From positions 1 through 5,320 of the forward strand of contig JALVZS010000006.1 of NCBI GenBank assembly GCA_027022065.1: 5,320 bases of DNA. Direction: 5' to 3'. The DNA is from a bacterium (lineage in GTDB: Bacteria; Thermosulfidibacterota; Thermosulfidibacteria; Thermosulfidibacterales; Thermosulfidibacteraceae). A program made the translations under genes and the position numbers. Within the stretch, counting starts at the first letter, position 1. The number at the start of each line of letters is the position of its first letter. The notes beneath the pieces were generated by a model. It ran no database searches. It was not told where the DNA came from and saw only the letters and a list, made by a program, of their open reading frames with translations. Shown here piece by piece: positions 808 to 5,269 of the stretch.

Positions 808-2523
808 ATGGGAGAGATAAAGACCAAAAGTGGGCTTTTTAATGAGGAGGCTATTGAGCAGATAGCAAGTGAGAAGGAGCGTTGGGAGAGGGAGAGCTTG
901 GCAAAGGAGATTGCCAGGCATCCCGAAAGAAAGGAAAAGTTCTTGTCCCTTTCTGATCTTGAAATAAAGCGTGTTTACACTCCAGAGGATATCAAAGACT
1001 TTGACTACATGAGGGATCTTGGCTTCCCAGGTGAGTATCCCTTTACCCGCGGTGTTCACACCACCATGTACAGGGGAAGAATATGGACCATCAGGCAGTT
1101 TGCCGGATTCGGCACGCCTGAGCAGACCAACAAGCGTTACAAGTATCTACTGTCCATAGGCCAAACCGGGCTTTCCATGGCCTTTGACTTTCCCACCCTT
1201 TACGGCAGAGACTCCGACGACCCCATGTCTAGGGGAGAGGTTGGAAAGTGCGGTGTTGCGGTGGACACCCTTAAGGACTTTGAGATTATCTTTGACGGCA
1301 TTCCCATGGACAAGATTAGTACCTCCATGACCATCAATCCCCCTGCCATTGTGCTATTGGCCATGTACATCGCCTGTGCCGAAAAGCAGGGTGTTCCCCA
1401 GGAAAAGCTTATGGGAACCGTTCAAAACGACATGCTAAAGGAATTTATCGCTCAGAAAACCTGGATTTATCCTCCTGAGCCTTCCTTAAGGCTTGTGAGG
1501 GACATAGTGGTTTACTGTACCCACCATGTTCCCAAGTGGAACACTATTTCCATCTCCGGTTACCACATAAGGGAGGCTGGAGCCACCGCTGTTCAGGAGC
1601 TCGCCTTTACCCTTGCCGATGGAATTGAGTATGTGAGGATGGGAATAAACGCAGGCCTTGATGTGGATCAGTTCGCTCCTAGGTACTCCTTCTTCTTTGA
1701 CAGCCACATGGACTTCTTTGAGGAGATCGCCAAGTTCCGTGCCGCCCGCCGTATGTGGGCCAAGATCATGAGGGAGTGGTTTGGTGCTAAAAACCCCAGG
1801 AGCTGGTGGATGAGGTTCCACACACAAACCGCTGGATGCTCACTAACAGCCCAGCAGCCTTTGAACAACATAGTTAGGACCACCATTGAGGCCCTGGCAG
1901 CTGTGCTTGGTGGAACGCAGTCTCTCCATACCAACTCCATGGATGAAACCTGGGCCCTGCCAACTGAAGAAGCCGTTACCGTTGCCACAAGGACCCAGCA
2001 GATCATCGCCTATGAATCCGGTGTTACCAACACAATAGATCCCCTTGCAGGTTCCTACTTTGTTGAGGCCCTTACGAATCAGATTGAAGAGAAGGCCTGG
2101 GAGTACATAAACAAGATTGAAGAGATGGGCGGCATGCTTGAGGCCATAAAGAAGGGCTATCCTCAGAGGGAGATTACGGAGTCTGCTTTCAGGTTCCAGC
2201 AGGCGGTGGAAAGGAAGGAGAAGATCATAGTCGGCGTGAACGAGTTTGTCATGGGTGAGGAGCACGACCTTCCCATTGAGATACTGAAGATAGACCCTGA
2301 GGTTGAGAGGGTGCAGATAGAGAGACTCAACGAGGTCAGAAGAAAGAGGAACAACGCCAAGGTGAAGAGCCTCCTTGATGACCTTAGGGACGCCTGCAAG
2401 GATGAAAAGACCAACGTTATGCCCATAATAATAGACCTTGTGAGGGAGTATGCGTCCATCGGAGAGATATGCAACGCCATGAAGGATGTATTTGGAGAGT
2501 ACAAAGATCCTGCCTTCTTCTAA
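808..2523 (+). CDS. icmA: isobutyryl-CoA mutase-like large (catalytic) subunit; would commonly be annotated methylmalonyl-CoA mutase
   Basis: This is the TIM-barrel substrate subunit of an AdoCbl-dependent acyl-CoA mutase, which moves a CoA-thioester group between adjacent carbons by a radical mechanism. At 571 residues it matches separate large subunits (Streptomyces IcmA is about the same length) and lacks a fused B12 domain. Family landmarks include [11 protein letters not shown] (81-91), [11 protein letters not shown] (93-103), [15 protein letters not shown] (125-139), GTVQND (203-208), [14 protein letters not shown] (248-261) and the FHTQTAG region. Against my recalled Propionibacterium methylmalonyl-CoA mutase numbering, a constant offset of 9 fits: Arg82=Arg91, Gln197=Gln206, His244=His253. 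Tyr89 becomes Phe98 and Arg207 becomes Gln216. Those two residues bind the carboxylate of methylmalonyl-CoA, and Phe/Gln is the isobutyryl-CoA mutase pair. Ala125 sits where 2-hydroxyisobutyryl-CoA mutase has Asp, arguing against that enzyme. Reaction: likely isobutyryl-CoA to butyryl-CoA; related branched substrates (for example isovaleryl/pivalyl-CoA) remain possible. Confidence 0.85.
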
Positions 2524-2535
2524 GGAGGGCTGAAG

Positions 2536-3345
2536 ATGGAAAAGAAGCTAATGCCTCTTAAGGAGGCCATAGAGAGGTTTGTGAGCGACGGAGACAAAGT
2601 GGCCCTTGGGGGTGTGGGCAGAAACCGTTGCCCCATGGATGCCGTGAGGGAAATTATCAGACAGGGCAAGAAGAACCTGCATCTGATAGGTAGGGAGAAG
2701 GGCTTAGACTTTGACATGCTCATAGGTGCAGGGTGCGTCTCCAAGGTTTCCTTTGCCCTTATATCCCTTGAAGAGTTTGGCCTCGCTCCTAACTTCAGAA
2801 GATATGCACAGGAAGGAAAAATTGAGATAGATGAGCATGCCTGCGGAAGCATAATAAACTCCATCAGGGCTTCTGCCATGGGCATTCCCTGTATTCCCGT
2901 AAAAGGCTTTATCGGCTCCGATGTTCTGAGGCACAGCAAAACCATAAAGGAGTTTATATGCCCGTTCACCGGAGAAAAGCTGGTTTTGGTTAAGGCCCTC
3001 AATCCCGATGTGGCTATCATCCACGCCCATAAGGCTGATGAGTATGGGAATGTGCAGCTTTTCGGCTCCCCCTGGGAAGACATTTACATGGCCAAAGCGG
3101 CAAAGAAGGTTATAGTTACGGTGGAGGAGATAGTACCTCATGAAGAGGTGAAGAAGAACCCCCATCTTACGGCCATTCCTTACTTCTATGTAAGTGCCGT
3201 GGTTCACGCGCCAAGAGGCGCCTATCCAACATCTTGTGACAGCTACTACAACTACGACGACGAGCACATAAAGGAGTATGTCCAGCTCGCCAAAACCCCT
3301 GAGGGCTTCCAGGAGTATTTGAAGAAATATGTTTATAAGGAGTGA
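2536..3345 (+). CDS. class I CoA-transferase-fold subunit A (GctA/IpdA-like)
   Basis: The 269-residue protein is the alpha subunit of a two-chain class I CoA-transferase-fold enzyme. Supporting motifs are the N-terminal Gly-rich GGVGRNRCPMD (25-35), LIGREKG (50-56), the block from GKIEIDEH (94-101) to SAMGIPCIPVKGFIGSDV (113-130), and IIHAHKADEYGNVQLFG (161-177), which matches the H-x-x-x-A-D-x-Y-G-N signature of glutaconate CoA-transferase A. Related pairs include glutaconate CoA-transferase (GctAB), the steroid ring hydrolase IpdAB and the decarboxylase AibAB. Glu98 and Glu100 lie roughly where IpdA carries its catalytic Glu, but the exact match is uncertain from memory. The start is supported by AAGGAGGG (2522-2529) six bases upstream. 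Its partner begins three bases after its stop. The fold is secure; whether the complex transfers CoA is doubtful because of subunit B. Confidence 0.85.
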   Translation: MEKKLMPLKEAIERFVSDGDKVALGGVGRNRCPMDAVREIIRQGKKNLHLIGREKGLDFDMLIGAGCVSKVSFALISLEEFGLAPNFRRYAQEGKIEIDEHACGSIINSIRASAMGIPCIPVKGFIGSDVLRHSKTIKEFICPFTGEKLVLVKALNPDVAIIHAHKADEYGNVQLFGSPWEDIYMAKAAKKVIVTVEEIVPHEEVKKNPHLTAIPYFYVSAVVHAPRGAYPTSCDSYYNYDDEHIKEYVQLAKTPEGFQEYLKKYVYKE

Positions 3346-3348
3346 GCC

Positions 3349-4119
3349 ATGGAGTACAAGGTAAGCGAGCTAATGATAAGCCTTATGGCCCGTGAGATAA
3401 AGGACGGCGATAAAGTACTTCAGGGCCTGTACTCCCCTATGCCCATGATAGCATGCCTTCTCGCCAAGCACTTCCACGCTCCCAACATGGTTTTCTTCAA
3501 TACTGCGGATGCCGTTGATCCCGATCCCTCGGAGGTGCCCTTCTCAACGGCTGGTCCTAAACTTCAGGAAAACTGCGTTGCCTATCTGCCTCTGGCAGAG
3601 GTATTTGACCTTGCGCAAAGAGGAGAGCTTTCCCTGATCTTTCTGGGTGCCGCCCAGGTGGACATGTACGGAAATACGAACCTGAGCGTCATCGGCGACT
3701 TCAGCAGGCCCAAGGTGAGACTTCCCGGTGGTGCGGCAAGTGCCTTCTTGTGCGGCTTCATGGACACGGTTATATGGGTGCCCAGGCACAACTCTAAGGT
3801 TTTTGTTGAGAAGGTTTCCTTTATAACCGGCCAGGGATACATAAACGGCTGGGACACAAGGGAAAGATTGGGCATTCCTAAAGGAGGTCCCAGAAAGGTT
3901 ATAACAAATCTCTGCGTCATGGACTTTGAGCCCAAAACCAAGAAGATGAGGCTGGTTTCCGTGCATCCTGGCGTTACCGTTGATGATGTGGTGAACAATA
4001 CGGGATTTGATCTTATAATACCCGATGAAGTGCCCACAACAGAGCCTCCCACGAAGGAGGAGCTGGAGTTCATAAGAAGCATAGATCCCAACAATGTAAG
4101 AGAACTTGAATTCAAGTAG
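3349..4119 (+). CDS. class I CoA-transferase-fold subunit B (GctB/IpdB-like) lacking the catalytic Glu
   Basis: This 256-residue beta partner of the preceding gene has the family motifs [14 protein letters not shown] (98-111), [14 protein letters not shown] (115-128) with the glycine loop, VSFITGQGY, and the C-terminal [17 protein letters not shown]. In true class I transferases this subunit holds a Glu that forms the glutamyl-CoA intermediate (VESG in Acidaminococcus GctB). The gapless match between the flanking AP and EVP blocks puts Thr52 there ([14 protein letters not shown], 43-56), and no Glu occurs from residue 47 to 61. IpdB also lacks this Glu, and the C-terminal part resembles IpdB more than GctB as I remember them. 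I therefore expect a hydrolase, decarboxylase or other acyl-CoA lyase rather than an ordinary transferase. The AAGGAG ribosome site (3337-3342) is inside the end of subunit A, so the pair is probably co-translated. Confidence 0.85.
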
Positions 4120-4130
4120 GAGGGAGCGGG

Positions 4131-4544
4131 ATGAGCGAGAGAAAGGTAAAGATCATGATTGCCAAGCCCGGACTTGATGGACACGACAGAGGCGCAAAGG
4201 TTGTGGCAAGAGCTTTGAGGGATGCGGGCTTTGAGGTGATTTACACTGGACTTCACCAGTCAATAGACCAGATAGTGCAGGCTGCACTTGAAGAAGACGT
4301 TGACGCCATCGGTATAAGCATACTTTCAGGAGCACACATGTATGTGTTCCCTACACTTATGCAGAAGCTTAAAGAGGCGGGACTTGATGATATAGTGGTC
4401 TTTGGAGGTGGTATAATACCCCTTGACGACATCCCCAAGCTGAAGGAGGTGGGTGTTAAGGAGATCTTCCTGCCCGGAACCCCCCTTGAGGAGATCGTTG
4501 AATGGGTCAGGAACAACGTGAAGCCGCGTCCGGTGAAGCTTTAA
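4131..4544 (+). CDS. icmB: AdoCbl-binding small subunit of the acyl-CoA mutase
   Basis: The 137-residue protein is a stand-alone B12-binding Rossmann-like domain, about the size of Streptomyces IcmB. The base-off/His-on motif is complete: DGHDRG at 16-21, with Asp16 and His18, the lower cobalt ligand. Lys12 matches the third member of the Lys-Asp-His triad of methylmalonyl-CoA mutase, at the same spacing. The SxL motif that cradles the nucleotide tail is SIL at 63-65 (GISILSGAH), and GGG at 92-94 (VVFGGGIIP) completes the site. It should pair with the large subunit at 808-2523, from which it is separated by the two transferase-fold genes. GGAGGG (4119-4124), overlapping the stop of subunit B, is its ribosome site, six bases from the ATG. 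The end overlaps the crotonase gene. The domain does not reveal the substrate; the icm name follows the large subunit. Confidence 0.92.
4488..4493 (+). promoter_or_regulatory. ribosome binding site supporting the early crotonase start
   Basis: GAGGAG lies eight bases before the ATG at 4502, inside the end of the B12-subunit gene. It favours 4502 as the true start although this gives a 43-base overlap. No other ATG, GTG or TTG occurs in frame before the conserved core except GTG at 4580, which would remove the first conserved strand. Confidence 0.5.
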
Positions 4545-5269
4545 GTTTTAAAAACTTAGAAATTAAGATAGAGGGGGCGGTGGCCCATCTTTTCATCAAC
4601 CGCCCCCGTCAGATGAACACCTTAAGCGTTGAAACCCTTAAGGAGTTGAGAAGGGCTTTTGGGTTTTTTCTATACAGGAGGGACGTTAAAGTTATTCTGG
4701 TTACCTCTGCAGGGGATAAGGTATTTGTGGCAGGTGCCGACATAAACGAGCTTGATGCCTTTGACAGGTTTGATGCCCTCTGGTTCTGCGATCTCGGACA
4801 TAGCTTGTTTAACCTTATGGAGAAGATTCCTCAGGTTATCGTGGCGGTTATAGACGGCTACTGCATGGGTGGAGGGTTTGACTTCTCAATGGCCTGCGAT
4901 ATAAGGGTGGCTTCTGAAAGGGCAAAGATCGCCCACACGGCCTGTAAAATGGGAATAATAACGGGCTTTGGGGGAACGCAAAGATTAAAAAGGCTTGTGG
5001 GGATAAGAAGGGCAAAGGAGCTTTTCTTTACGGCGAGGATTCTGGATGCCTGGGAGGCTTTGAGATACAGAATTGTGCATGCGGTTTTTCCCGATGAAGT
5101 GGTTTGTGAAAAGGCGAACGAGCTGGCTTTAAAAATGGCAAAAAAGCCATTTTGGCAGCTTTCTGTGCTAAAGGCTTTACTTAATAAAAGCTTGGACATG
5201 GATAGGAAGGCCTTTTGCTGGTATGAAACCTATACGAGTCTAGCGAGGTGGGAAGATGGGATTGATTGA
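4502..5269 (+). CDS. crotonase (enoyl-CoA hydratase/isomerase) family protein with altered catalytic residues
   Basis: The crotonase fold is clear: [12 protein letters not shown] (31-42), the oxyanion segment [10 protein letters not shown] (76-85), [20 protein letters not shown] (119-138) and [13 protein letters not shown] (155-167). The two oxyanion-hole positions are kept (Ala79 and Gly124, matching rat mitochondrial Ala98 and Gly141). The acid/base pair is not: Glu144 corresponds to Asp127 and Glu164 to Ala147, with the 20-residue spacing preserved. A classical hydratase needs both Glu, so plain 2-enoyl-CoA hydration is doubtful. Isomerase, decarboxylase (ECHDC1-like proteins also lack the second Glu) or hydrolase chemistry are alternatives. 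The protein stops at WEDGID, about where the family continues with EG..AF.EKR.P.F, so some 20 C-terminal residues are missing. The N-terminus has about 13 extra residues before LSFKNL, encoded within the B12-subunit gene. Fold is certain, reaction unknown. Confidence 0.85.
4542..4558. repeat. 17-bp perfect dyad at the small subunit/crotonase junction
   Basis: TAAGTTTT and AAAACTTA are exact inverted arms around one central A. The dyad begins with the stop codon of the B12-subunit gene and lies 40 bases inside the crotonase frame. It is A/T-only except for two G/C pairs. It has the form of a protein-binding dyad but no function can be shown; no T-tract follows it, so it is not a terminator. 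Confidence 0.4.
5132..5153 (+). repeat. 8-bp inverted repeat with an A6 loop inside the crotonase gene
   Basis: AAAATGGC and GCCATTTT pair perfectly around six A residues. The segment encodes the residues around KMAKKPFW, a normal part of the crotonase C-terminal half, so coding constraint and chance are possible. It resembles a weak hairpin with only three G-C pairs. Confidence 0.3.
5245..5250 (+). promoter_or_regulatory. ribosome binding site of the MeaB-type gene
   Basis: GAGGTG sits five bases before the ATG at 5256, within the last codons of the crotonase gene. It supports the overlapping start rather than a later one. Confidence 0.55.

Follow-up and report, generated by a model that had tools for sequence, protein, structure and literature searches.

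The gene at positions 808 to 2523 of the window, by which we mean the whole 5320-base stretch of DNA analyzed here, encodes a 571-residue acyl-CoA mutase large subunit whose sequence supports its assignment to the isobutyryl-CoA mutase type, with isobutyryl-CoA as the predicted substrate, and not to the methylmalonyl-CoA mutases (MCMs). The window probably represents the core of an operon that would oxidize isobutyryl-CoA, derived from isobutyrate or valine, via n-butyryl-CoA. The substrate and direction of this pathway are predictions that draw on a conserved gene order, an adjoining acyl-CoA dehydrogenase (ACAD) of the short-chain (SCAD-like) type, the isobutyryl-CoA mutase cluster of Syntrophothermus lipocalidus, and published specificity sites. 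The mutase is a further example of an already described kind, as the two-site rule used to recognize it has been published; PMC7238569 applies both sites in the same way, citing Jost et al. 2015. Such genes are still often labeled as MCM, so that a propionate pathway is written where an isobutyrate/valine pathway stands. The genome that contains the window has both mutase types, which are distinguished by two residues.

In the alignment to solved chains, Phe98 (codon 1099-1101) is found opposite a Tyr in human and P. shermanii MCM (Tyr89 in the latter) and opposite an Ile in the 2-hydroxyisobutyryl-CoA mutase HcmA (4r3u). Gln216 (codon 1453-1455, in the motif KEFIAQKTW) is found opposite an Arg in MCM (Arg207 in P. 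shermanii) and a Gln in HcmA. This agrees with an earlier note on this DNA, which had placed the two residues at these codons in exchange for the Tyr/Arg pair of MCM. The register of the specificity sites in the alignment is unambiguous. The single offset of 9 that the note had proposed from Arg82, Gln197, and His244 holds at six positions (R82/R91, Y89/F98, A116/A125, Q197/Q206, R207/Q216, and H244/H253, P. shermanii numbering first). Together with Ala125 (codon 1180-1182), the three sites read Phe/Ala/Gln in the window and in IcmF, Tyr/Ala/Arg in MCM, and Ile/Asp/Gln in 2-hydroxyisobutyryl-CoA mutase.

The complete alignment comprises 138 rows, including the window, the second copy from its genome, and three reference chains, with relatives drawn from 80 named genome contigs, related genomes, and named plasmid records. 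The residue pair is Phe/Gln in 93 rows, Tyr/Arg in 36, Ile/Gln in three, Val/Gln in one, Leu/Ser in two, Leu/Asn in one, and Val/Val in one, and a single row covers the Arg column only. Among the 129 rows with either main pair (93 Phe/Gln and 36 Tyr/Arg), no Phe/Arg or Tyr/Gln hybrids occur. A second class marker is located at P. shermanii position 122, which is Leu or Ile in 93/93 Phe/Gln rows (Leu131 in the window, codon 1198-1200) and Gln or His in 36/36 Tyr/Arg rows. The Ile/Gln and Val/Gln rows constitute the hydroxyisobutyryl group and carry Asp at the Ala125 position in 4/4 cases. Ala125, which had been read as an argument against this group, indeed sets the window apart from it, but the residue does not discriminate between isobutyryl-CoA mutase and MCM, both of which have Ala.

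IcmF (L122, which NCBI annotates as a fused isobutyryl-CoA mutase/GTPase) serves as the Phe/Gln reference. Streptomyces IcmA, which we take to carry the Phe/Gln pair as well, was sought among the plasmid records, and the records examined were of the Tyr/Arg type or IcmF. Cracan and Banerjee are said to have reported in 2012 that IcmF also accepts isovaleryl- and pivalyl-CoA weakly. Given these side substrates, the two-site specificity rule is imperfect. Isobutyryl-CoA, 2-methylbutyryl-CoA, and other short acyl-CoAs that lack a second carboxylate are indistinguishable from the sequences of Phe/Gln enzymes.

The residue classes are mirrored in a quick tree of 66 rows with SH-aLRT support, from which the two trait columns (98 and 216) were removed. 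A branch with an SH-aLRT of 84 separates the Tyr/Arg enzymes from the rest, and the window is nested within the Phe/Gln part, whose deep order is resolved only in part, in a starred clade (100) of six members of its order. The four main residue classes need three changes on the tree, the minimum possible, compared to a mean of 22 when the classes are shuffled. The 2-hydroxyisobutyryl-CoA mutases form a separate starred clade. An IcmA sequence that is also included, only as a lead (MEM_IcmA), sits on a long branch and matched no close record, and its placement is to be disregarded. The alignment and tree that the note had proposed thus place no Arg at the carboxylate-binding position of the window protein and group it with the Phe/Gln enzymes, outside of the Tyr/Arg enzymes.

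At the family level, the large subunit scores 842 bits against TIGR00641 and matches the PDB entries 4r3u, 2xij, 1req, and 4xc6. Its score against the MCM equivalog NF006944 (697.6 bits) stays below the cut-off of 876, although this model describes a fused enzyme and a lower score is to be expected for a split subunit. The score against the IcmF equivalog (369.7) is far under the cut-off of 1500.

The window is one entire contig (C6) of a 1.57-Mb assembly in 251 contigs, and the view of its own operon is bounded by the contig ends. According to open reading frame and profile analysis, its genes are tightly packed on one strand (+), and the mutase large-subunit frame is intact. The left end (1-261) holds the C-terminal part of a short-chain ACAD (PF00441), a gene truncated by the contig's left end in which the catalytic-Glu motif YEGTSE is present. 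The nearest PDB chains of its full-length ortholog (L004:8220-9362) are SCAD/butyryl-CoA dehydrogenases, and isovaleryl-CoA dehydrogenases rank lower. It is followed by a cob(I)yrinic acid a,c-diamide adenosyltransferase of the CobO/CobA type (258-794; PF02572, 2.1e-64; TIGR00708 above cut-off), an enzyme that makes adenosylcobalamin. Downstream of the mutase large subunit lie the alpha subunit (2536-3345; PF01144) and beta subunit (3349-4119) of a CoA-transferase-family protein. The cobalamin-binding small subunit of the mutase (4131-4544; TIGR00640, 173 bits; PDB 2yxb and 4r3u_C) contains DGHDRG as its DxHxxG motif. A short-chain enoyl-CoA hydratase of the crotonase family completes the window (4502-5269; PF00378, best match NF004475), and an ortholog (L007:5311-6078) occupies the same place in a relative. 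The first listed start of the hydratase overlaps the small-subunit gene by 43 bases (4502-4544), so the true start may be located downstream.

The gene order ACAD-CobO-MUT-CTA-CTB-B12-(ECH)-MeaB is conserved across the order to which the window belongs, with MeaB directly downstream of the operon in relatives. In L004/L128, genes for a thiolase, 3-hydroxybutyryl-CoA dehydrogenase, ACAD, EtfB, EtfA, and an Fe-S reductase are found directly upstream of the mutase operon. A comparable setting is known from S. lipocalidus, which degrades isobutyrate via isomerization to butyrate and whose isobutyryl-CoA mutase cluster also encodes CobO and a MeaB-like protein and is related to genes of sulfate reducers (PMC5017805). 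The window resembles the split isobutyryl-CoA mutases (Streptomyces IcmA/IcmB and S. lipocalidus Slip_0757-0760) in its separate large and small subunits, and the S. lipocalidus cluster also in its CobO and MeaB partners. It differs from both in the transferase-like pair between the two subunit genes and in the adjoining ACAD. IcmF (L122, L152) has the same Phe/Ala/Gln residues but is a single polypeptide with a G-protein domain, whereas the window mutase is split and MeaB is a separate protein in relatives.

In the proposed pathway, isobutyrate or valine would be the source of isobutyryl-CoA. The mutase, a complex of the large (808-2523) and the cobalamin-binding small (4131-4544) subunits, would shift the thioester carbonyl in a radical reaction that interconverts isobutyryl-CoA and n-butyryl-CoA. 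Phe98 and Gln216 are predicted to line the pocket where the Tyr/Arg pair of MCM would grip the free carboxylate of the substrate. CobO would supply adenosylcobalamin, and MeaB would load the cofactor. Subsequently, butyryl-CoA could be converted to acetyl-CoA by the ACAD and the enoyl-CoA hydratase together with Etf, 3-hydroxybutyryl-CoA dehydrogenase, and thiolase, the last three being encoded in a relative.

The CoA-transferase-like pair (2536-4119) has no assigned step in a plain isobutyrate pathway. Both subunits align over most of their length with family I-fold proteins (glutaconate CoA-transferase, AibAB, and IpdAB), and the best PDB match of the alpha subunit is 1poi_A, followed by AibA (5mzw) and IpdA (6coj). 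In the alignments of the beta subunit to 1poi_B and AibB, Thr52 (codon 3502-3504) takes the position of the catalytic Glu54 of GctB. A Thr is found there in 7/7 members of the order that were checked, and a second beta-subunit family (L172 and L173, 56% identical), which G004 and G007 carry in another operon, has a Val. The absence of the catalytic Glu makes the CoA-transferase label doubtful, and the pair is probably not a classical CoA-transferase. Precedents are AibB with a Cys (PMC7756340) and IpdB with a Gly (PMC5380842) at this position, neither of which is a CoA-transferase. The insertion of such a pair between the mutase subunit genes was seen only in the order of the window.

With no catalytic Glu in the pair and no step assigned to it in the plain pathway, the operon may serve a more elaborate route. 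The mutase could then act on another substrate that has no second carboxylate (2-methylbutyryl- or valeryl-CoA, isovaleryl- or pivalyl-CoA, or a larger branched acyl-CoA), with an AibAB- or IpdAB-like decarboxylase or hydrolase in the same route. We consider this unlikely, although several observations are compatible with it: the Phe/Gln pair signals only that a free carboxylate is not bound, AibAB (PMC7756340) and IpdAB (PMC5380842) likewise lack the Glu and act on unusual substrates, and Tyr132, Arg134, and Tyr293, which lie close to the specificity sites, are unusual features of the clade of the window. It is opposed by the SCAD-like character of the adjoining ACAD and by the C4 β-oxidation set in L004, which includes a 3-hydroxybutyryl-CoA dehydrogenase, an acetyl-CoA C-acetyltransferase-like thiolase, and Etf. 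A specificity for isovaleryl- or pivalyl-CoA is disfavored.

The mutase reaction is reversible, and anaerobes that form isobutyrate from butyrate are known (PMC7764203). The enzyme might thus work from butyryl-CoA toward isobutyryl-CoA, for isobutyrate excretion or for starters of branched-chain fatty acids. This direction appears quite improbable, however, because many genes of the cluster are oxidative, Etf and an Fe-S electron acceptor being present as well, and because a cluster with CobO and MeaB has been reported in an isobutyrate oxidizer (PMC5017805). Oxidation of isobutyryl-CoA remains the preferred reading.

There is very little to be said for the gene being the genome's MCM with atypical residues. 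It shares the family and the CoA-binding and catalytic residues (R91, Q206, and H253) with MCM, has about 50% identity to human MCM, and is assigned an MCM N-terminal domain by family-level models. In contrast, it carries Phe/Gln with no mixed rows among the 129, scores below the MCM equivalog cut-off, and coexists with a copy of the Tyr/Arg type elsewhere in the genome. This second large subunit (contig C65, G000:C65:3175-4894, L085) has an Arg at the Gln216 position. Its Tyr position falls in an assembly gap or another frame, and intact orthologs of the same family and order are Tyr/Arg. The C65 gene lies in two frames; a frameshift was rejected because the translation has a run of X at the break, which is treated as an assembly gap and not as a broken gene. 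The C65 mutase adjoins genes for a biotin carboxylase, a biotin-carrier protein, and a carboxyltransferase; the last of these matches the methylmalonyl-CoA decarboxylase alpha model best but does not reach its cut-off. Beyond one further gene lies a methylmalonyl-CoA epimerase that scores above the curated cut-off. In Ilyobacter polytropus, used as an outside control, a Tyr/Arg split mutase similarly adjoins genes for its small subunit, for MeaB, for an epimerase, and for a subunit of a carboxylase. Since carboxylase and epimerase genes accompany the Tyr/Arg paralog, the MCM of this genome is that paralog and not the window gene. The residues, the tree, and the paralog together lead us to reject the assignment and support the note's view that an MCM label would be wrong and that the substrate has no free carboxylate.

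A 2-hydroxyisobutyryl-CoA mutase is hardly credible and is rejected on the basis of residues and tree: HcmA/HcmB is the closest solved structure (best PDB match 4r3u_A) and shares the split architecture and the Gln, but the window has Phe98 and Ala125 in place of the Ile and Asp of HcmA (Ile/Val and Asp in 4/4 rows of that group), lies outside its separate clade, and has no adjacent CoA ligase, unlike the Methylibium and Xanthobacter clusters.

The genome of the window encodes two large subunits, and a single mutase-type small subunit (4131-4544) exceeds the cut-off of TIGR00640; the genome's only other match to this model is part of an 804-residue frame and scores below the cut-off. The same pattern recurs in many bacterial families that have both split enzymes. 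Of 60 genomes searched, 19 carry both Phe/Gln and Tyr/Arg split large subunits (G002, G003, G004, and G007 among them). Exactly one separate small subunit is present in 17/19 of these, and in 12/12 with a completeness of at least 95%, with the proviso that most of the counted genomes are draft assemblies and that a diverged second small subunit could score below the cut-off. In the remaining two, a second small subunit is located beside a third, Leu/Ser-type mutase. When adjacency is defined by a 4-kb rule, the small subunit adjoins the Phe/Gln gene in 15 of the 19 genomes and the Tyr/Arg gene in none; G007 is a sixteenth case, in which contig ends split two pieces of the same Phe/Gln operon. 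Where a Tyr/Arg mutase is alone in a genome, the small subunit can adjoin it (G037, G043, G057, and Ilyobacter). MeaB occurs above the cut-off once in each of six order members, and a search at the model cut-off did not find it in the fragmented window genome.

Since a single small subunit is the rule and never lies beside the Tyr/Arg gene in genomes with both types, that of the window probably serves both mutases. On balance, we lean toward an arrangement in which one small subunit and one MeaB serve the Phe/Gln isobutyryl-CoA mutase and the Tyr/Arg MCM, the large subunits competing for a common B12 module. A search of the open-licence literature found no published description of such sharing. 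If true, the common module would link isobutyrate and propionate metabolism, and loss of the single small-subunit gene is predicted to stop both pathways. To judge from the small-subunit counts, two B12 mutases may depend on a single shared cobalamin module in many microbes, and the function of a mutase would then be poorly predicted by the small subunit next to it.

Further mutases were encountered in the survey. A third type with Leu/Leu/Ser at the three sites (in the motif EELVRSGSEY) and its own small subunit is found in L133 (G006:C40, 7582-9348) and L134 (G005:C62, 8578-10350); by sequence, the neighboring genes seem to encode a TRAP-type transporter, FAD-linked oxidase, Fe-S subunit, and CoA ligase. 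The Xanthobacter autotrophicus Py2 plasmid pXAUT01 carries, in addition to a mutase of the hydroxyisobutyryl type, a diverged mutase whose three sites read Leu/Leu/Asn (L150, 262194-263741), an unconfirmed candidate for a pivalyl-CoA mutase. An unusual expansion is seen in G039, a genome of about 2.5 Mb from the same domain, in which the mutase large-subunit family is matched 19 times and several separate small subunits exceed the cut-off.
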